Shown here in pieces: positions 748 to 10,619 of a stretch of DNA of 11,309 bases (positions within the stretch are counted from its first letter, which is position 1; each line of letters begins with the position of its first letter). The notes beneath the pieces are model-generated. The model was not told where the DNA came from, did no database searches, and was given only the letters and a program-made list of their open reading frames with translations. This DNA comes from Clostridia bacterium (lineage in GTDB: Bacteria; Bacillota; Clostridia; Oscillospirales; Acutalibacteraceae): the NCBI GenBank assembly GCA_017437165.1, contig JAFSBS010000012.1, forward strand, positions 1-11,309. The letters are read 5' to 3'. Both the position numbers and the translations under genes were made by a program.

Positions 748-3549
748 GCTACACAAAAAAAGTCGGGTAAATCACCGGCTAAAGGCAAAACAAATACAAA
801 AGGAAAAAATACCAAAAAAACTAATATTGCAGATTCATCTAAAAAACAAGGTGTTTTATTAGGTGTTTTTATATTCGCGATTTTTATGGCTGCGGTAGTG
901 TTTATAGATGCGGGCGGTCCTTGGGGAAGTTTAAGAAACTTCTTTTTTGGTGTATTTGGTTTTACCGCATTTATATTTCCGTTCTTTTTGATGTTTGTAA
1001 GCGTTATTGCAGCAATTGGTAGAGATTCAAGAAAGTATAAATATCGTGTTGTTGAGGGTGTTGTGATTTACACTCTTATTATAGCATTTGTACATATTGT
1101 ATCGAGTTCAGATGGTCTTGGCTACGGTGAACAGATAACAGAAAGTTATAATGTTTTCAAAAATGCCGATGGAACCGGACCTCGTTTTGGTACGGGTGTC
1201 TATGGTGCGGTATTTGGTGGTTTACCACTTCTTTTAACCGCTGGTAATAAACTTGCTGCAGGAATTATAACATTTCTTCTGATTTTTTCACTTGTTATGA
1301 TTTTTTCGGGTACATCACTGCTTAAATTAGTACGTTCTTTAAAAACACCTGTAGAAGTTGTTGGTGATTATGCTGAAGAAAAACTTGACAGTATGAAAGA
1401 AACTTACGAAACAGTTTCTCACGATGTTCAGGAAATTAAAGCAAAAAACGCAGAAAAACGCAGAGCAGCAAGAGAACAATATGAGCCTGTAAAAAGGTCA
1501 AGAATCGATATTCCGTTAGATGATACTGAAAGTGCACCGGATATAGGTATTGACACCATTTTTGAAACCTCGTCTTACAAAACTGTTGCTGAATTAAATA
1601 ACACTTCGCTCAATATGAATGATTTTGATGAAGTTAAACCCTCAAAAATTGAACTTCTTGATGACTATAATGATAGTTACCCTGAAAATGATGTTGAAGT
1701 TACTGAAGAGGGAGCTATTAAAGCTGATGCTATTTTAGAAAAGGCTGTTAACGATTTGAATTCTAAATTTTCGGATTCAGGCAATTTTAACTTTGGTAAT
1801 GAGTTAGCTGAACCTGTCGAACAACAAAGTGAAATTGTTGAAGATATCAGCGACGAAGATGAAGATGTTGACGAAGAAGAATTTGTAGCACCTGAGATTA
1901 AAGAACTTGAAATTAATTATGAATTACCACCGATTGATTGTCTCGATTTACCAAAAAACAGGGCAGGGTATGATGATTCAAGAGATTTGCAGGAAAAAGC
2001 AAACAAAATTGTTGAAACACTTAATTCCTTTGGTGTAGGAACAAAAATTGTTGACATCTGTAAAAGTCCTTCTGTTACACGATTTGAACTTCAACCTAAT
2101 CCGGGCGTTAAAATCAGTAAAATTACTGCACTTGCAGATGATATTGCGATGAATCTTGCGGCTTCAGGTGTTCGTATTGAAGCACCGATTCCTAATAAAA
2201 ATGCTATTGGTATTGAAGTTCCTAATTCGGAAAAAACAATGGTCTATTTAAGGGAAATTGTTGACAGTCAGGAATATAAAAATGCGAAGTCAAAACTTAC
2301 TGTTGCTTTGGGAAGAGATATTCAGGGTACAGCAACTTGTGCAGATTTAGCAAAAATGCCTCACTTACTCGTTGCTGGTACAACAGGTTCAGGTAAATCT
2401 GTTTGTCTTAACGCAATGATTATAAGTTTGCTTTACAATGCTACACCTGATGAAGTTAAACTTATTATGATTGACCCTAAAAAAGTCGAGTTTACAGTTT
2501 ATCGTTCTATTCCTCATCTTTTAGTTCCGGTTGTTTCTAACCCACGCAAAGCAGCAGGCGCTCTTTCATGGGCAGTTGCAGAAATGGATAAGCGTTATGC
2601 TTTGTTTGCTGAAAAAGGGGTAAGAAATCTTGCTGGTTATAATGCTTATGCAGTTTCCGAAAACCTTCCTAAAATGCCACAGATTGTTATAATTATAGAT
2701 GAGTTGTCTGATTTGATGATGGCAGCTTCAAATGAAGTTGAGGATTCGATTTGTCGTCTTGCTCAAAAAGCGAGAGCTGCCGGAATGCATTTAATTGTTG
2801 CTACTCAAAGACCTTCAGTTGATGTTATTACAGGTCTTATTAAAGCTAATATTCCAAGCCGTATCGCTTTTGCTGTTAAATCACAGATTGACTCAAGAAC
2901 AATTATTGATACACAAGGCGCTGAAAAACTTTTAGGTAATGGTGATATGCTTTATTGTCCGGTAGGTCTTTCAAAACCTGTAAGAGTTCAGGGTGCTTAT
3001 CTTTCCGATGATGAGATTGAAAGAGTTATCAATCACGTAACTTCTCAGGGTGAAGTCAAATATGATGACGAAGTAATTCAGGAAATCGAAAAAAATGCTG
3101 CAAAAGATGACAAAAAGAAAAGTGCTGATATTTCGATTGATTCAACCGGTCAGGGTGAAGACGGAGATGAAATGATACCAAAGGCAATTGAAGTTATTCT
3201 TGAACAAGGTATGGCTTCAACAACTCTTCTTCAAAGAAAGTTGAAATTAGGTTATGCACGTGCAGCGAGAATAATTGATGAACTTTCCGAAAAAGGTATT
3301 GTTGGGCCTTATGAAGGAAGTAAACCGAGAAAAGTTCTGATTACAAAAGAACAATGGTATGAAATGCAGGCGCGTTCAGGAAGTTCAGCACCGAAACAAC
3401 TCACTATTGAGGAAGTTACTGCACCCAAAATTACTGCTCCCGTGTTTGAATATCATGACACAGATGATGCCGATGACGATGCTTCTTCTGATATTGGTAA
3501 CAGTAATTATTTCGGTGGAGCAGTAAGTTCTTATCAGGATGAGGAGTAA
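745..3549 (+). CDS. ftsK: DNA translocase FtsK/SpoIIIE
   Basis: This septum-anchored hexameric motor pumps double-stranded DNA, clearing the chromosome from the division or sporulation septum. The 934 residues start with a Lys-rich cytoplasmic tail (1-34), then hydrophobic membrane segments at about 36-55, 66-90, 102-119, 155-172 and 175-195. A charged linker follows (about 200-395), strongly acidic near 355-385. The motor has Walker A GTTGSGKS at 545-552 and Walker B IVIIIDE ending at 652-653. After these come the family-typical RPSVDVITGLIKANIPSRIA and the GAEKLLGNGDML segment. A winged-helix gamma domain (about 806-867), which in the family reads oriented DNA motifs, has the usual AARIIDELSEKGIVGP. 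An acidic tail of about 65 residues ends the protein. The start is TTG at 745, with AAGGAG at 728-733 overlapping the end of uppP; there is no good ATG alternative. Whether it acts in vegetative division, sporulation or both cannot be told from sequence. Confidence 0.96.
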   Translation: MATQKKSGKSPAKGKTNTKGKNTKKTNIADSSKKQGVLLGVFIFAIFMAAVVFIDAGGPWGSLRNFFFGVFGFTAFIFPFFLMFVSVIAAIGRDSRKYKYRVVEGVVIYTLIIAFVHIVSSSDGLGYGEQITESYNVFKNADGTGPRFGTGVYGAVFGGLPLLLTAGNKLAAGIITFLLIFSLVMIFSGTSLLKLVRSLKTPVEVVGDYAEEKLDSMKETYETVSHDVQEIKAKNAEKRRAAREQYEPVKRSRIDIPLDDTESAPDIGIDTIFETSSYKTVAELNNTSLNMNDFDEVKPSKIELLDDYNDSYPENDVEVTEEGAIKADAILEKAVNDLNSKFSDSGNFNFGNELAEPVEQQSEIVEDISDEDEDVDEEEFVAPEIKELEINYELPPIDCLDLPKNRAGYDDSRDLQEKANKIVETLNSFGVGTKIVDICKSPSVTRFELQPNPGVKISKITALADDIAMNLAASGVRIEAPIPNKNAIGIEVPNSEKTMVYLREIVDSQEYKNAKSKLTVALGRDIQGTATCADLAKMPHLLVAGTTGSGKSVCLNAMIISLLYNATPDEVKLIMIDPKKVEFTVYRSIPHLLVPVVSNPRKAAGALSWAVAEMDKRYALFAEKGVRNLAGYNAYAVSENLPKMPQIVIIIDELSDLMMAASNEVEDSICRLAQKARAAGMHLIVATQRPSVDVITGLIKANIPSRIAFAVKSQIDSRTIIDTQGAEKLLGNGDMLYCPVGLSKPVRVQGAYLSDDEIERVINHVTSQGEVKYDDEVIQEIEKNAAKDDKKKSADISIDSTGQGEDGDEMIPKAIEVILEQGMASTTLLQRKLKLGYARAARIIDELSEKGIVGPYEGSKPRKVLITKEQWYEMQARSGSSAPKQLTIEEVTAPKITAPVFEYHDTDDADDDASSDIGNSNYFGGAVSSYQDEE

Positions 3550-3551
3550 TT

Positions 3552-3788
3552 ATGGATATTTTTATTGAACGATTTGAGGGTGATTACGCTCTTTGCAGAT
3601 TAGATGACAGAGAAAAGAATCTTATAAAATTACCGTTACGGGAGTTGCCTGATGATGTCAAAGAATTCTCTGTAGTTACTTTAAAATCAAATGGTACTAT
3701 GTTTGTAAATTCTTACGCAAAAGAGTTAAGAATGGAGAAAATAGCAAAAAGTCTTAAATGTAAAAAATATAAATTTGATTTTTTATAA
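3552..3788 (+). CDS. Small DUF3006-like protein
   Basis: This 78-residue protein resembles the DUF3006 family, whose members open with a short beta-strand pattern of the type DRFEGDYA followed by an acidic turn. Here residues 3-17 read IFIERFEGDYALCRL, then a basic/hydrophobic stretch IKLPLRELPDDVKE. The C-terminus is Lys-rich (MEKIAKSLKCKKYKFDFL). There is no signal peptide, membrane segment or catalytic motif. The family's function is unknown to me. The ATG at 3552 is 2 nt after the ftsK stop, and its GAGGAG binding site lies in the last ftsK codons, so it is probably translated together with ftsK. The family call is from memory of the opening motif and is moderately sure; a role is not inferred. 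Confidence 0.72.
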   Translation: MDIFIERFEGDYALCRLDDREKNLIKLPLRELPDDVKEFSVVTLKSNGTMFVNSYAKELRMEKIAKSLKCKKYKFDFL

Positions 3789-3818
3789 AGATTTTTGCAA
3801 AAAAATGTTAAAAAACAC

Positions 3819-3847
3819 TTGATTTTTAGGGAAAGTAGTGCTATACT
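3819..3847 (+). promoter_or_regulatory. Sigma-A promoter of rpsB with extended -10
   Basis: TTGATT at 3819-3824, a 17 nt spacer and TATACT at 3842-3847, with TG at 3839-3840 in the extended -10 position. Transcription would begin near 3854, giving a leader of about 105 nt before rpsB. The site matches the consensus well and suits a highly expressed ribosomal gene. It also separates the translation genes from the ftsK run upstream. Confidence 0.8.
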
Positions 3848-3853
3848 TTCATA

Positions 3854-3958
3854 GCAAAAACTCACGCAGGGGAGATTTGGAATGCCTTGTGCATCATAAG
3901 GTGTGGTGTTCTTAAAGTTGATACCTTGCGGCGGTTTAACAAAAAGGAGGACAATAAT
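3854..3958 (+). promoter_or_regulatory. Structured 5' leader of rpsB, candidate S2 autoregulatory element
   Basis: The stretch between promoter and start is GC-richer than other gaps here and folds by eye. Hairpin 1 pairs 3882-3888 with 3898-3904 around a 9 nt loop (includes two G-U pairs). Hairpin 2 pairs 3917-3925 with 3933-3940, with one bulged T at 3922 and a loop TTGCGGC. A competing long-range pairing of CGCAGG (3865-3870) with CCTTGCG (3924-3930, one bulge) would exclude hairpin 2. AAGGAGG at 3944-3950 follows directly. Ribosomal protein operons often carry such protein-binding leaders; a role for S2 is inference, and I do not match it to a named RNA family. Confidence 0.45.
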
Positions 3959-4708
3959 ATGTCAGTAGTATCAATGAAACAACTTCTCGAAGCAGGTGTT
4001 CATTTCGGTCACCAAACAAGAAGATGGAACCCCAAAATGGCTCAATACATCTTCACAGAAAGAAATGGTATTTACATCATCGACCTTCAGAAGACTGTTA
4101 AGAAGCTCGAAGAAGCTTACACATTCATCAACCAGATTGCACAAGACGGTGGCGAAGTTCTCTTTGTAGGTACAAAGAAGCAAGCACAGGATTCTGTTAA
4201 AGAAGAAGCAGAACGTTGTGGTATGTCATTCGTTAATGCTCGTTGGCTTGGTGGTATGCTTACAAACTTCAACACAATTCAGAGAAGAATTAAAAGACTT
4301 GCTCAGTTAAAAGCTATGGCTGAAGACGGTACTTTTGATCTTCTTCCTAAAAAAGAAGTTATTAAGCTCAACCTTGAAAGAGAAAAACTTGAAAAATTTA
4401 TGGGTGGCATTACTGAAATGAAAAAAATGCCTGCAGCAATGTTCATTGTTGACCCAAGAAAAGAAAGAATTGCAGTTCTCGAAGCAAAGAAACTCGGTAT
4501 CCCGATCGTTGCTATCGTTGACACAAACTGCGATCCTGATGAAATTGATTATGTAATTCCTGGTAACGATGATGCTATCCGTGCAGTAAAACTTATTGCA
4601 GGTGCTATGGCAGATGCTATTATTGCTGGTCGTCAAGGTTTACAGACAATCCCTTCTTCAGAAGCAGCAGAAGAAGTTGCTGAAGAAGTAGCAGAAGACG
4701 CTGAATAA
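3959..4708 (+). CDS. rpsB: 30S ribosomal protein S2
   Basis: Structural protein of the small ribosomal subunit, sitting between head and body on the solvent side and needed for S1 or mRNA-platform function in the family. The 249 residues fit the family's 230-260. Hallmarks are [19 protein letters not shown] near the N-terminus, [29 protein letters not shown] and the C-terminal [20 protein letters not shown] followed by [11 protein letters not shown]. The protein ends in an acidic, Ala/Glu-rich tail ([12 protein letters not shown]). The start is the ATG at 3959, 8 nt after a strong AAGGAGG; the open frame extends upstream to about 3887 but without a binding site or homology. It has its own promoter and leader and is followed by tsf, the widespread bacterial rpsB-tsf order. 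Confidence 0.98.
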
Positions 4709-4724
4709 TTTGAAAATATTAAAT

Positions 4725-4752
4725 AAGGCGGAAAATTTTTCCGCCTTGTTTT
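4725..4752 (+). terminator. Hairpin between rpsB and tsf, terminator or attenuator
   Basis: AAGGCGG at 4725-4731 pairs with CCGCCTT at 4741-4747, extended by A/T pairs towards the loop, and is followed by GTTTT. This is a plausible but leaky intrinsic terminator. In many bacteria such a hairpin between rpsB and tsf makes S2 and EF-Ts yields differ, and I infer the same here. I see no clear separate promoter for tsf in the 76 nt gap. Confidence 0.7.
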
Positions 4753-4784
4753 AAAATATGGTAAAACCTAAGGAGGAAATAAAA

Positions 4785-5651
4785 ATGGCATTTACAGCTC
4801 AAGACGTTAAAACATTAAGAGAAAAAACAGGCGTTGGTATGATGGAGTGTAAAAAAGCACTTACAGAAGCTGACGGCGATATGGATAGAGCTTTCGAAAT
4901 TCTTCGTGAAAGAGGCCTTGCAGCATCTGAAAAGAAAGCAAGCAGAATTGCAGCAGAAGGTGCAGTTATAGCTTACACAGACGAAGCTACTAAAGTTACA
5001 GTTCTTCTTGAAATCAATTCAGAAACAGACTTCGTTGGTAAAAATGAAAAATTCCAAGAATTCGGTCTTAATGTAGCAAAAACTATTGCTGCTAACAAAC
5101 CATCATCAGTTGAAGCACTCGCTGATCTTCAACTTGTTGGTACAGACAGAACAGTAACAGAAGGACTTAATGACCTTATTCTTGTTATTGGTGAAAACAT
5201 CAAAATTCGACGTTTTGAAATCGTTGAAGGTGACGTTGTGACATACATTCATGCAGGCGGTTCAGTTGGTGTTGCAGTTAAATTTGAAACAAACCTTACT
5301 GATAAAGCTGAATTCGTTGCAATGGGTAAAAATATTGCTATGCAAATCGCTGCTATGAGCCCTGAATATCTTAGTCAGGATTCAATTTCTGCTGATGAAC
5401 TTGCAAAGATGAAATCTATCACAATTGATAGTTCACTTAATAAACCTGAATCACTTCCAAAGCCAATTCTCACAGCTCTTTTCGAAAAAGCAATTTCGGA
5501 AAAACTTTTCAGTGATGAAGATATTGCTGCTTATGAAGAAAACAAAAAGAATCAGTATCTCTTTAACTTCCTTTCAAAAGAAGCAGTTGCTACTCTCGCT
5601 TCTCTTGCTGTTGCGGGTAAAGATGAGTATATCAACAACAAAATCTTCTAA
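4785..5651 (+). CDS. tsf: Elongation factor Ts, cut short by an in-frame TAA
   Basis: EF-Ts is the guanine nucleotide exchange factor that recharges EF-Tu. The N-terminal UBA-like domain (residues 3-55, including REKTGVGMMECKKAL and GDMDRAFEILRERGLA) and the core motif TDFVGKN (81-87) are intact, as is IHAGGSVGVAVKF. The ATG at 4785 has AAGGAGG at 4770-4776; the ATG at 4758 is upstream of that site and is rejected. The frame stops at TAA 5649-5651 after 288 residues, yet the same frame resumes with the family's C-terminus (see 5652-5882). Between NKPES and VEGR there are about 65 residues where typical EF-Ts has under ten, an apparent expansion at the coiled-coil tip. The truncated product would lack the returning coiled-coil helix and the conserved C-terminal module, so it is unlikely to be fully active. 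A sequencing error is the leading alternative. Confidence 0.93.
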   Translation: MAFTAQDVKTLREKTGVGMMECKKALTEADGDMDRAFEILRERGLAASEKKASRIAAEGAVIAYTDEATKVTVLLEINSETDFVGKNEKFQEFGLNVAKTIAANKPSSVEALADLQLVGTDRTVTEGLNDLILVIGENIKIRRFEIVEGDVVTYIHAGGSVGVAVKFETNLTDKAEFVAMGKNIAMQIAAMSPEYLSQDSISADELAKMKSITIDSSLNKPESLPKPILTALFEKAISEKLFSDEDIAAYEENKKNQYLFNFLSKEAVATLASLAVAGKDEYINNKIF

Positions 5652-5882
5652 GGTTCAGTAGAAGGTCGTATTAAAAAGCAAATTAAAGAAATCTGCCTTC
5701 TTGAACAAGCATTTGTTCGTTCAGATATATTTGATGGTACAGTTGCTGGTTATGTTGCAAATGTTGCAAAAACAACAGGTGCTGATATCAAAGTAGAAAG
5801 TTTCATTCGTCTTGTAAAAGGTGAAGGTCTCGAAAAGAGAGAAGATAATTTTGCAGATGAAGTTGCAAACATGGTAAAATAA
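5652..5882 (+). pseudogene. tsf: In-frame C-terminal remainder of tsf beyond the TAA
   Basis: The 76 codons after the internal stop, in the same frame, encode unmistakable EF-Ts C-terminal sequence: GSVEGRIKKQIKEICLLEQA, then VAGYVANVAKTTGADIKVES and GEGLEKREDNFADEVANMVK before TAA at 5880-5882. No frameshift or second stop occurs, and a terminator follows at once. A full reading frame from 4785 would be 365 codons including the stop codon. No ATG, GTG or TTG with a good binding site opens this piece, so independent translation is not supported. One base change (for example AAA to TAA) explains the break. Confidence 0.85.
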
Positions 5883-5896
5883 TTTGATTTAATTAA

Positions 5897-5925
5897 AACG
5901 ACTCTCGTTTGAGGGTCGTTTTTTT
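5897..5925 (+). terminator. Intrinsic terminator of tsf
   Basis: A 10 bp stem, AACGACTCTC (5897-5906) with GAGGGTCGTT (5911-5920, one G-T pair) around a GTTT loop, followed by five further Ts. It lies 14 nt after the downstream tsf stop at 5880-5882, as expected if the full-length frame is the true gene. Confidence 0.9.
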
Positions 5926-5931
5926 CATTTC

Positions 5932-5960
5932 TTGACATTTATTTTGTAACATATTATAAT
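5932..5960 (+). promoter_or_regulatory. Perfect-consensus sigma-A promoter of the glycosyltransferase
   Basis: TTGACA at 5932-5937 and TATAAT at 5955-5960, spaced exactly 17 nt. Transcription would start near 5967, about 27 nt before the ATG at 5994. No activator or operator motif is evident. The promoter sits seven nt after the end of the tsf terminator T-run, so the gene is transcribed independently. The ribosome binding site that follows is weak (TTTGGTG), so strong transcription may be offset by poor initiation. Confidence 0.88.
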
Positions 5961-5993
5961 TTTTATAACATTATAATTTAGTTTGGTGTTTTT

Positions 5994-7196
5994 ATGAAGA
6001 TTTTTGAAATAAATTCCGGTAACTATGGTAGTACCGGTAATATTATGTTGAATATTGCAGAAACTGCGAAGTTATCGGGTCATAATGTAAAAATTGCTTA
6101 TCGTAAAAGCCGTAGTGTCACTCCAGGCAATTCTGATGATGAAATTCTTATTGGTAACAGCTTTTATGGTTTAACTCATAGACTTCTTGGTGAATATTTG
6201 GGGCTTGAAGGTTTTGGTTCTGTTTTTTCTACTTTAAAGCTAATTAAAGATATTAAAAATTTTAACCCGGATATTATTCATCTTCATATTTTACACGGTT
6301 GGTATCTCAATTTACCATTGTTATTCAGTTTTTTGTCAAAATATGACAAGAAAGTTGTATGGACAATGCACGACTGCTGGGCTTTTACCGGGCATTGCCC
6401 ACATTTTGAGTATGTGAAATGTAATAAATGGCAAACGGGTTGTGAGAATTGTTCACAATATAAAGAATATCCTTTTTCAAAAATTGATAATTCAAAGTTT
6501 TTATATAAATATAAGAAGAAATATTTTACTTCAATTAAAAATCTGAATATTGTTACACCTTCTCAGTGGTTAGAAGGATTGATTGAAGGCTCGTATTTGA
6601 AAAATAACAGTAAAACTTACGTTATTAACAATGGTATTGATTTAAACATTTTCAAACCTGTAGAAAGCAATTTCAGAGAGTTAAATAATATATCTGAAAA
6701 CGTTTATTTAATTTTAGGTGTTGCTTTTGAATGGACTGAAAAAAAAGGTGTTGATATTTTTAAAAAACTTAGCAATGATTTGAACAGCAATTATAAAATT
6801 GTTTTAATTGGTACAACTGAAGATGATGAAAAGAATTTACCTGAAAATATTATAAAAATAAGAAGAACTTCAAGTAAAGAAGAATTAGCTGAAATATATT
6901 CTTCGGCAGATTTATTTGCGAATCCGACAAAGGAAGAAACGTTTCCTACAGTCAATATGGAAGCTCTTGCTTGCGGGACACCTGTTTTGACATTTAGCAC
7001 AGGTGGAAGTCCTGAAATAATTGATGAAAAAAGTGGTAGCGTTGTCGATTGTGATGATTATGAAAGTTTTAAAAGTGAAATTATCAGAATATGTGAAACG
7101 AAACCATTCAATAGTTCAGATTGCATTGAAAGAGCGAAAATGTACGATATGAACGACAAGTTTATAGAATATGTAAAATTGTACGAAAGCATATAA
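5994..7196 (+). CDS. Family-4-type glycosyltransferase, GT-B fold
   Basis: A 400-residue cytoplasmic or membrane-associated sugar transferase that would add a sugar from a nucleotide donor during surface polysaccharide or glycolipid synthesis; acceptor and sugar are unknown. The N-terminal half has the GSTGNI loop (12-17) and NPDIIHLHILHGW. WTMHDCWAFTGHCPHF (123-138) begins a Cys-rich segment with C128, C135, C143, C150 and C153, as seen in a colanic-acid-type subgroup. The C-terminal donor half has VINNGIDLNIF (210-220) and the retaining-type EX7E pair E315/E323 in ETFPTVNMEALACGTPVL, then GGSPEII. No signal peptide or membrane segment is visible. It is a single-gene unit with its own promoter and terminator and no sugar-synthesis neighbours, so context does not reveal the pathway. 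Family is confident, the specific role is open. Confidence 0.9.
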   Translation: MKIFEINSGNYGSTGNIMLNIAETAKLSGHNVKIAYRKSRSVTPGNSDDEILIGNSFYGLTHRLLGEYLGLEGFGSVFSTLKLIKDIKNFNPDIIHLHILHGWYLNLPLLFSFLSKYDKKVVWTMHDCWAFTGHCPHFEYVKCNKWQTGCENCSQYKEYPFSKIDNSKFLYKYKKKYFTSIKNLNIVTPSQWLEGLIEGSYLKNNSKTYVINNGIDLNIFKPVESNFRELNNISENVYLILGVAFEWTEKKGVDIFKKLSNDLNSNYKIVLIGTTEDDEKNLPENIIKIRRTSSKEELAEIYSSADLFANPTKEETFPTVNMEALACGTPVLTFSTGGSPEIIDEKSGSVVDCDDYESFKSEIIRICETKPFNSSDCIERAKMYDMNDKFIEYVKLYESI

Positions 7197-7199
7197 TTT

Positions 7200-7248
7200 T
7201 GCACTCCTACAGATCAATTTTTATTCATCTGTAGGAGTGTAGTTTTTT
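7200..7248 (+). terminator. Strong intrinsic terminator after the glycosyltransferase
   Basis: CACTCCTACAGAT (7202-7214) pairs perfectly over 13 bp with ATCTGTAGGAGTG (7227-7239) around a 12 nt loop, and TTTTTT at 7243-7248 follows. It stops + strand transcription between convergent genes; its T-run touches the kinase stop codon at 7247-7249. Read on the - strand the hairpin is also just downstream of the kinase, but there it is followed by CAAAATTATATG rather than a U-tract, so it is at best weak in that direction. Confidence 0.9.
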
Positions 7249-9955
7249 AGTTTATTTCATTAAATTTTGCAGTACCAAATTCATTAACGGAAGGTGATGT
7301 CTTTTCTTGTTTTATTTGAGGTTTGTTTGTTATCGGTAATTTAATTGTAACTTTAAATAAGTCACCATCAATTTCAATTGAGAAAATACCTTTCTGAAGC
7401 TCTGTGAAGCTTCTAGCAATAGAAAGACCAAGACCACTGCCTTCAGTTGTTCTTGAATTATCACCGCGTACAAATCTTTCGGTAATCTCATCAGGATTTA
7501 TATTAAGTTTATCTTTGCTTATGTTTTTAACAGAAAATACACCATATTTTTCCTCTTTATAAACATCAACATAAACTCTTGTACCTGAAAGAGCATATTT
7601 TTTTACATTTGAGAATAAATTGTCAAAAATTCTGAAAGTGTGCTGACTGTCGGCTTTTACAAATAAATCGGTATCTTTTTGAGAAACGATGATTTCTAAA
7701 CCAACATTTTCTAAAATATCATTATTTTCACCGACGGCTTGTAACGCCAATTCATTAAGATTTACAGTATCTACTGTCATTTTAATATTACCGCTTGATG
7801 CTTTACTTGCTTCAGTTAAATCCTCAATAAGTCTTTTTAACTTAGTTGATTTTTCATCAAGAATATCTAAATATTTAATTTCATCTTCGCCTTCAATATC
7901 ACAAAGTTTCAAGAGTGAAACATAGTTTATAATTGAAGTAAGGGGAGTCTTCAAATCGTGAGAAACATTAGTAATAAGCTCAGTTTTTAGTCTTTCACCT
8001 TTTAATGCTTCGCCAACTGCCTTTTCAATTGAATCACGGCATTCATTAAGATTTCTTGCAAAATCTTTGAGAGGGAATACGAATTTTGTAGAATCAAGGT
8101 TAATATCAAGATTGCCATTTTTCATATTCTCAACAGCAATAGCAAGAGTTTTGGTTTGTGATAAAAATTTTAATGCAAAAATTATTCCAATAATTGTATT
8201 TATTAATAATAAAATTGCAAAAAATACACCGACTTCTTCTTCAAAACCAAAACCACAAGCAAAAAATCCAACAGCGAATTCTATAACCGCCCAAATTGAT
8301 AAAACAATTAACAACTTTTTCTCAATTTGTTTTACTGTATTTCTTAAATCTTTATTTTTTTCAATAAATTTCTTGAAGTTCTTATAAATTTTATAGCAAA
8401 TAAAACGCTCTTTAAAAGAATTAGCTTTTTTGTTCACTACAATATGGTTTATAAATACTGTAGTCGAAAAGGTGAGTATTGCAAAGAACAATCCTATTAA
8501 ATCCGGCAATATTTCTCCTATAATAAAATAATCAAAAGCTCTGTCGAAATTATAGGAATTATCAGGAAAATAATCAAATTCACCAATAAGGTATATAATG
8601 CTCACTCCGATAGAAAAAATAATTCCCAAATATAATGCAAGATGAACAATAAAGAATGTTCGCTGGCTAATATTTAAACAGAGTTTTTCATTTTTAAATT
8701 TTGGTTTAGAAAGTATTGCAAGAGTAATAATTCCGGCAACTGTTAAAATAGAAAAAATAATAGTTTGTGTTTTTAAAGAAAGGGAGTCCTGTTTTGAACT
8801 ATCATTAAACATTTGTGATAGTACATAAAACTCATCATCCGCGGACTGCGGCATATTAACTTTAAAATAAACAGTACAATCATTAAAGTGATGCAAAATT
8901 AAACCTGTTCTTAATGTTTCTGATATTAAGCCAGATTTTACGAGAATCATATTTATAAAATTCTCTTCTAATTCAACTTTAGCAGGAGTATAATTTACTA
9001 TTTTACCATCATAATAGAAATAAAACAAAGCATTATCTTTATAATTTTGTTTTAAATTTTCAATATCTTCAATTTTTTCAAAATTTGAAAGATAATTACC
9101 ATTCTTATTATTAACAACCAAGAAATCAATATTGTTAAAATTTTCTCTTAAATTATATAAACCTTCTTGACTTGCTTCATAACGCGAAACTAATTGTTCA
9201 TTAAATTTAATTTCTAATTCTGTTTTTATTGTTTCTTCGCTTCGGGCATCATTTACAATTTCAAAAAGACGCCTTCTTAAATTTGCATAGTCATATTCCC
9301 ATTCGGCACGCGTGTTGTATTTATTATGAGACATATAATCTGTATCAGGATTTTCAACAACAAAAGTTTCAACAACAAAAGTTGTAAGTGGCGAAGTTAC
9401 TTCACCCTGAACGTAGTTTGAATCAGCATTTGTTGTCTGGTTCGAAGAAACATTGTTTGTGTTAAAATAAGGAAACCTGTTTAATTCCTCCTGGAAAGAT
9501 TCAAGAGAGCCATATTCTTCCTGATAGTCACCATTATCAATATAAAAACAACCGGATTCGTTATTGTAAGAAGTACCATCAGGTAATGGTTGAACTTTTT
9601 TATGCTCCTGAATTTTATTGTAATAATAAAGCGCATCTTTTAATTGAGAGTCGTGAGATTCCTTTAAATCTTTGGTGTTTAAAGTGCTTTTTGAAAAATC
9701 CTCGAAAGTCATATTCTGACCGAAATTTTCTAAAGTAGAGCCAACTTCCCACGACAAAAAATCTAATTCATTCTGAATATTTTTAATAAAAATAGGAGTA
9801 TTTCTTATATTTTCTGTTTCATTATTAAAATAAATTGTTTTACGCACCAAATTTAATGCTGAAGTTCCCGAAAGAAATGCAAAAATAAGTGTAAGTATTA
9901 AAATAATTGCTTTAATAATCGGGTTAAATTTAGATTTTTTCAATTTTGTATCCAA
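7247..9955 (-). CDS. Large membrane sensor histidine kinase
   Basis: Partner of the adjacent OmpR-type regulator; it would autophosphorylate and pass the phosphate to that protein on sensing an envelope or external signal. At 902 residues it is about twice the usual kinase size. A membrane helix (11-33) is followed by an unrecognised, Asn/Glu-rich, probably extracellular region (about 35-395), then helices at about 396-416, 433-457, 475-505, 547-570 and 574-597, and a HAMP-like linker. The kinase core has the H box NVSHDLKTPLTSI (H666), N box residues N779 and N783, F box ERFVRGDNSR (826-835) and G2 box GSGLGLSIA (839-847). The usual DxGxG G1 box is replaced by KNISKDKLNI (810-819). A 15 bp tandem repeat encodes TFVVE twice (192-201). 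Start is TTG at 9955, overlapping the regulator by 26 nt, with AGGTGG 9 nt upstream. The signal is unknown. Confidence 0.93.
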   Translation of the reverse strand: MDTKLKKSKFNPIIKAIILILTLIFAFLSGTSALNLVRKTIYFNNETENIRNTPIFIKNIQNELDFLSWEVGSTLENFGQNMTFEDFSKSTLNTKDLKESHDSQLKDALYYYNKIQEHKKVQPLPDGTSYNNESGCFYIDNGDYQEEYGSLESFQEELNRFPYFNTNNVSSNQTTNADSNYVQGEVTSPLTTFVVETFVVENPDTDYMSHNKYNTRAEWEYDYANLRRRLFEIVNDARSEETIKTELEIKFNEQLVSRYEASQEGLYNLRENFNNIDFLVVNNKNGNYLSNFEKIEDIENLKQNYKDNALFYFYYDGKIVNYTPAKVELEENFINMILVKSGLISETLRTGLILHHFNDCTVYFKVNMPQSADDEFYVLSQMFNDSSKQDSLSLKTQTIIFSILTVAGIITLAILSKPKFKNEKLCLNISQRTFFIVHLALYLGIIFSIGVSIIYLIGEFDYFPDNSYNFDRAFDYFIIGEILPDLIGLFFAILTFSTTVFINHIVVNKKANSFKERFICYKIYKNFKKFIEKNKDLRNTVKQIEKKLLIVLSIWAVIEFAVGFFACGFGFEEEVGVFFAILLLINTIIGIIFALKFLSQTKTLAIAVENMKNGNLDINLDSTKFVFPLKDFARNLNECRDSIEKAVGEALKGERLKTELITNVSHDLKTPLTSIINYVSLLKLCDIEGEDEIKYLDILDEKSTKLKRLIEDLTEASKASSGNIKMTVDTVNLNELALQAVGENNDILENVGLEIIVSQKDTDLFVKADSQHTFRIFDNLFSNVKKYALSGTRVYVDVYKEEKYGVFSVKNISKDKLNINPDEITERFVRGDNSRTTEGSGLGLSIARSFTELQKGIFSIEIDGDLFKVTIKLPITNKPQIKQEKTSPSVNEFGTAKFNEIN
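9352..9381 (-). repeat. 15 bp perfect tandem duplication in the kinase sensor region
   Basis: On the + strand TTTCAACAACAAAAG occurs twice back to back (9352-9366 and 9367-9381). Translated on the - strand it gives TFVVE-TFVVE, residues 192-201 of the kinase. A unit of 15 nt keeps the frame, so copy-number changes would add or remove five residues without breaking the gene. Confidence 0.9.
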
Positions 9956-10619
9956 TTCCCCACACCACCTTTAAGTATTTTGGTTCTTTAGGATTTATTT
10001 CGATTTTTTCTCTTATTCTTCTTATGTGAACTGTAACTGTTTTATCACCGGAAATAGGGGTGTCGCCCCAAACTGCTTCATAAATCTGGTCAGTTGAAAG
10101 AATTCTGCCTAAATTCTTCATTAAATGCTCAACTATCCCATATTCTGTAGCAGTTAACTTTACAATTTCGCCATCAACTGTAACTTCGTGTGCGTTAGTG
10201 TCAAGTGAAAGACCGCCTGAAGTTATAACTCCATCTTTTTTCTCTAAACTGCCAAGTGAACAGTATCTTCTTATCTGACTTTTAACTCTTGCACAAAGCT
10301 CAAGAGGGTTAAAAGGTTTTGTTACATAGTCATCTGCACCAAAACCAAGACCGGTAATTTTGTCTGTATCTTCACTTTTAGCAGAAAGTAAAATAATTGG
10401 AATATTTAAAGACTCTCTGATTTTCAATGTTGCGTTCAATCCGTCTAAAACCGGCATCATAATATCAAGAATTATACAGTGTACTTCATTATTCTCTAAA
10501 GCGCTCAATGCTTCTTTACCGTTTTCGGTTAAAATAACATTATAACCCTCCATCTTTAAATAAATTTCAATTGATTTTAAAATTGCGACATCGTCATCAC
10601 ATACAAGAACAGTTTTCAT
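9930..10619 (-). CDS. OmpR/PhoB-family response regulator
   Basis: DNA-binding transcription regulator of a two-component pair with the downstream kinase. The receiver domain (1-115) has acidic residues D8-D10, the phosphoacceptor D52 in ILDIMMP, S79 in IILLSAKSE and K101 in DDYVTKPF. The C-terminal winged helix (about 130-229) has the usual LTATEYGIVEHLMKNLGRIL, IYEAVWGD and VHIRRIREKIE followed by KVVWGIGYKIE. At 229 residues it is a standard full-length member. The ATG at 10619 is preceded by AAGGAGG (10626-10632), and the gene is followed by the kinase with a 26 nt overlap, so both are made from one transcript. A leader dyad at 10634-10650 and a promoter at 10746-10775 lie upstream. Targets are unknown; similar pairs often control envelope or antimicrobial-peptide responses, which is only inference. 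Confidence 0.96.
   Translation of the reverse strand: MKTVLVCDDDVAILKSIEIYLKMEGYNVILTENGKEALSALENNEVHCIILDIMMPVLDGLNATLKIRESLNIPIILLSAKSEDTDKITGLGFGADDYVTKPFNPLELCARVKSQIRRYCSLGSLEKKDGVITSGGLSLDTNAHEVTVDGEIVKLTATEYGIVEHLMKNLGRILSTDQIYEAVWGDTPISGDKTVTVHIRRIREKIEINPKEPKYLKVVWGIGYKIEKI
9953..9970 (-). promoter_or_regulatory. Ribosome binding site and TTG start of the kinase
   Basis: On the - strand AGGTGG (9970-9965) lies 9 nt before the TTG at 9955-9953, inside the regulator's last codons. No ATG or GTG lies in frame nearby upstream, so this start is chosen. A second in-frame TTG four codons later (L5) is possible. The 26 nt overlap implies coupled synthesis of regulator and kinase. Confidence 0.6.

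Follow-up and report, generated by a model that had tools for sequence, protein, structure and literature searches.

The in-frame TAA at positions 5649-5651, which interrupts the gene for translation elongation factor Ts (tsf), most likely represents a local consensus error in a metagenome assembly, a reading to which a probability of roughly 0.73 is assigned from sequence comparison. A small error of this kind, arising in the assembly or from the few reads behind it, would have altered codons 289 and 291 of an otherwise normal tsf gene from an uncultured Clostridia bacterium, converting the former into TAA; in the real population, tsf would most probably encode an intact 365-residue EF-Ts. 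This explanation is favored because an ordinary amino acid is encoded at the interrupted position in the relatives examined, among them a nearly identical protein. It is also the best reading of the lesion because the change is clustered, private, and limited to two residues, in an assembly that is 81% complete and divided into 457 contigs. Under such an error, we infer that the stop would lack read support.

The window, i.e., the whole stretch of DNA analyzed here, is one entire contig (C66) of 11,309 bases from an assembly totaling 1,933,028 bases. Its closest named relatives are metagenome assemblies assigned to Clostridia and Oscillospiraceae, several of them labeled as originating from the gut of sheep, deer, yak, or cattle, and the source organism is probably an uncultured Clostridia bacterium from a gut.

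The interrupted tsf gene

A single uninterrupted frame is expected of EF-Ts, and in the window this frame is broken by a TAA at codon 289. The gene begins at an ATG at 4785, downstream of rpsB (Ribosomal_S2 match at 3983-4630), which is the usual upstream neighbor of bacterial tsf. The relevant features are as follows:

4785-5882, + strand: tsf (translation elongation factor Ts), 365 codons plus stop over the whole frame, interrupted at codon 289; Pfam EF_TS on both pieces
5649-5651, + strand: in-frame TAA at codon 289; a sense codon in relatives, the closest of which encode Ser or Ala
5652-5879, + strand: conserved EF-Ts C-terminus, residues 290-365, corresponding to Pfam EF_TS positions 157-204
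5895-5922, + strand: terminator-like stem-loop and T-run 3' of the natural tsf stop; two such sites in 4700-6000, against 0.5 expected in shuffles

Beyond the TAA, the frame remains open for 76 codons (residues 290-365) before reaching the natural stop, also a TAA, at 5880-5882. A profile search of the assembly returned an EF_TS match spanning 5001-5825 that contains one TAA, and Pfam EF_TS (PF00889) scores 147.1 bits before the stop and 33.2 bits after it, both above the cut-off of 27. The preliminary description had reported an in-frame TAA in tsf with an intact C-terminus beyond it, and the frame, the 76 codons, the quoted motifs, and the terminator-like stem were all recovered. Possible restart codons after the stop comprise a single ATG, at 5871 and thus close to the natural stop, and six of the rarer ATT, ATC, or ATA codons; GTG and TTG are absent from this part of the frame. 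Scans of the window against Rfam and for tRNAs found nothing, nor did phage records give a match to it.

Sequence divergence points to constraint on both sides of the stop. Relative to the closest genome locus (L032), dN is 0.017 and dS 0.449 after the stop, compared with 0.026 and 0.303 before it, and for L033, L034, L037, and L041, dN after the stop is likewise not higher than before. For L035, L036, L039, and L040, amino acid changes affect a somewhat larger share of codons after the stop (12-14 of 76, vs. 26-32 of 288 before), which we take to reflect divergence of those lineages. Thus, no clear sign of the relaxed constraint typical of a pseudogene was found beyond the lesion, where a very recent change would not yet show decay.

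Within a single genus, EF-Ts occurs both in a long form, as in the window (365 aa), and in a shorter form represented by 308-codon open frames in two genomes (G010 and G020); by a rough estimate from the translation and the Pfam match, the extra stretch of the long form lies at about residues 230-290. Further along the window, a perfect match to a sigma-70-type promoter (12/12, spacer 17) is located at 5932-5960 on the + strand, just upstream of a glycosyltransferase gene that begins at 5994; at a looser threshold, four promoter-like sites were found against 4.0 expected. The glycosyltransferase gene (5994-7196) is convergent with a gene pair at 7247-10619 on the - strand, which, from the translations, we take to encode a sensor-kinase-like and a response-regulator-like protein.

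Privacy of the stop and an intact counterpart

The preliminary description had proposed aligning tsf of close relatives at codon 289. This comparison yielded a sense codon in 69/69 alignable loci and a stop in none; the full set held 110 relative loci, with some genomes present twice, and 41 were set aside as their first-part alignment did not end at residue 288. The matching codon is TCA (Ser) in the three closest loci and GCA (Ala) in the next nearest. At the level of whole genomes, an EF_TS match was obtained in 54 of the 60 relatives searched, and none of these 54 has a stop inside the match. Among the sequences examined, the TAA at codon 289 is private to this assembly.

The most direct comparison is offered by a protein of 365 aa, P0001, identified in a protein search with 100% identity to window residues 1-288. 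Over all 365 positions, 363 are equal, and the only two differences fall at residues 289 (Ser vs. stop) and 291 (Ala vs. Ser). The database entry combines 34 member sequences and four contigs whose provenance is not shown; the longest contig measures 36,627 bases, and therefore at least one of them is not the 11,309-base window. The source field of P0001 carries the mark otherwise given to proteins encoded by the window; as P0001 is not encoded there, we take the mark to reflect its identity over the query, a point that tempers the error reading. Given clustering of the database at 90% identity, some members may belong to other species, and the truncated protein of the window may itself be among them. 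P0001 may derive from this species or one very close to it: for the adjacent ftsK product, the search returned the protein itself (P0121, on a contig of 11,309 bases), the others among the 120 matches listed reaching at most 88% identity. The suggestion in the preliminary description that a sequencing or assembly error is the simplest explanation gains support from the privacy of the stop and from this intact, almost identical protein, which is encoded on at least one contig other than the window.

The lesion extends beyond the stop codon itself, to a second unusual residue:

5655-5657, + strand: codon 291, encoding Ser in the window; of the 120 EF-Ts proteins listed, 119 have Ala at this residue and one has Val

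At residue 289, the same 120 proteins have Ala (97), Ser (16), Val (4), or Met, Ile, or Cys (one each). Two random positions would fall as close together as 289 and 291 with a probability of about 0.011. The earlier statement that no further damage is present needs one correction, since residue 291 is also unusual; otherwise, no clear decay was seen in the tail. At the nucleotide level, bases 5650 and 5655 are unlike those of all 13 relatives aligned, and base 5660 is unlike that of the four closest relatives, such that the differences from these four are spaced exactly five bases apart (5650, 5655, and 5660). Base 5660 may nevertheless be ordinary variation, since it is common to a more distant relative, L040.

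A biological alternative is that the stop is read through, so that a single gene yields EF-Ts in two lengths. The open and constrained frame beyond the stop is compatible with this idea, as is a small private hairpin that covers the stop. The hairpin, however, contains the stop rather than following it, and the usual readthrough signal is not placed straddling the stop codon. Furthermore, the 92-nt segment that starts with the stop (5649-5740) folds no better than shuffled sequences (z -0.06, for folds free of pseudoknots). The stop is shared by none of the relatives tested, neither at the 69 alignable loci nor in the 54 genomes, and no EF-Ts shorter than 354 aa occurs among the 120 listed, in which truncated proteins could be hidden inside clusters. 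Readthrough is accordingly considered highly improbable.

A reassigned or suppressed TAA in this organism has a next to negligible probability. Of the 60 genes that could be aligned as far as their stop codon, 43 terminate in TAA, the commonest terminator among them, for which reason reassignment is very unlikely; the earlier argument that recoding is improbable because other genes end in TAA is borne out by this count. The readable sample of the assembly, described below, contains no other internal TAA. With regard to suppression, none of the eight tRNA genes found, a number far from a full set, reads a stop codon, and a tRNA scan of the 60 fetched contigs, 31 of which consist of N throughout, found no tRNA. 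In the sequences examined, there is accordingly nothing to suggest conserved readthrough, recoding, or a suppressor.

A possible real nonsense allele and the quality of the assembly

The main rival to a consensus error is a real and very recent nonsense allele present in some cells, as a deleterious or minor variant, which is judged unlikely. Such an allele might have arisen, perhaps, through one multinucleotide event at a small inverted repeat:

5643-5666, + strand: small inverted repeat spanning the stop, with a predicted 8-pair hairpin including G-U pairs; private to the window

The stretch 5630-5680 has a predicted folding energy of -6.7 kcal/mol (z -2.82), a value equaled or bettered by 2 of 200 shuffles. 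In L032, L033, L034, and L040, the same stretch gives z values of -0.17 to 0.62 and no hairpin of note, and the hairpin is therefore a product of the window's own differences. The changes at 5650 and 5660 each add one pair to it, as might be expected of an inverted-repeat event, whether real or technical; the hairpin may thus leave room for an event of either origin. Clustered changes can, moreover, occur as real multinucleotide mutations, which counts against an error. A source for the changed stretch was nevertheless not apparent nearby. The surrounding 21 bases occur nowhere else in the assembly's own genome within three mismatches, and the longest local reverse-complement match in the four relatives is seven bases. 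Because no nearby reverse-complement template exceeds this length, a simple template switch at the inverted repeat is not supported. An exact 11-base match to 5650-5660 was found once, in L241 on the other strand, against roughly 0.13 expected in the sample (a rough figure, with masked bases counted).

The undamaged tail is what would be expected of a recent change, and thus fits a real allele. Against it, the closest known protein is intact, and the stop would remove the region matching approximately residues 212-279 of E. coli EF-Ts from the product of a gene found only once. The preliminary description had raised another tsf copy as an option; in the assembly, which is 81% complete, a single EF_TS match was found, and a single DNA match covers tsf. 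As for the functional consequences, passages in a structural account (PMC3747624) describe the N- and C-terminal modules of EF-Ts as contacting domain I of EF-Tu and subdomain C, including Val-234, as contacting domain III. An EF-Ts ending at residue 288 would probably be inactive because these C-terminal contacts with EF-Tu would be missing. EF-Ts is held to be necessary for normal growth, a view that the stop would challenge if real. It is very improbable that a living Clostridia strain has a true nonsense codon in the sole gene it possesses for EF-Ts and sustains its growth by leaky readthrough or with a truncated EF-Ts.

The frequency of gene-breaking changes elsewhere in the assembly bears on both explanations. 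The readable sample consisted of the window and 29 further contigs (189,373 bases), 31 of the 60 other contigs fetched being N throughout, and the open frames of the relative G019 (1,088,583 bases) served as the reference, with thresholds of at least 65% identity and at least 80 residues. In this sample, 74 genes (of 848 reference frames; 26,494 codons) could be compared, revealing one internal stop, namely the tsf TAA, and one frameshift, on contig C65. The reverse comparison covered 62 of 133 frames (22,886 codons) and gave four stops, all within one open frame that was judged not to be a gene. A sample with so few other breaks, and no other internal stop, is not riddled with errors; this counts against an error at tsf and is in keeping with a real allele. 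Gene-breaking changes in the assembly are rare but present, and they neither prove nor exclude an error at 5650. The small size of the readable sample weakens the error-rate estimate in both directions and leaves the odds unaltered.

The frameshift on contig C65 (L144, G000:C65) is located at about 2715-2725, where a single-base shift within an A run splits a gene about 711 codons long (reference in L200); it represents either a further small error or a genuine indel. A chimeric contig was considered and rejected, as colinearity with G019 extends across the entire window at 88.4% identity. In another relative (G016, locus L128), rpsB shares 97% identity with its counterpart in the window, and the sequence upstream of it shows 72-86% identity when compared in 300-base steps (window 2449-4725); this alignment stops short of tsf, where the fetched locus ends.

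Comparison with known systems

The interrupted gene resembles bacterial EF-Ts (PF00889; E. coli structure 1efu) in its location downstream of rpsB, its N-terminal and core regions, and its conserved C-terminus. It differs from E. coli EF-Ts in that the frame is cut at codon 289 and in that the form found here is longer (365 aa vs. 282).

Among the papers listed by literature searches on premature stops in tsf and in metagenome assemblies, none deals with this case. The lesson to be drawn is that comparison with near-identical proteins should precede any biological reading of a single private stop in a draft metagenome assembly. For the consensus error favored here, passages of one study (PMC7111523) provide a parallel: uncurated metagenome assemblies are described there as containing local errors that result in incorrect gene sequences, and in metagenome genomes such errors are detected by a lack of read support. 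Read support is the defining check for these errors; the tsf stop, assessed here by sequence comparison, is like the local errors of uncurated metagenome-assembled genomes in being a small private lesion, on an otherwise colinear contig, in a fragmentary assembly.
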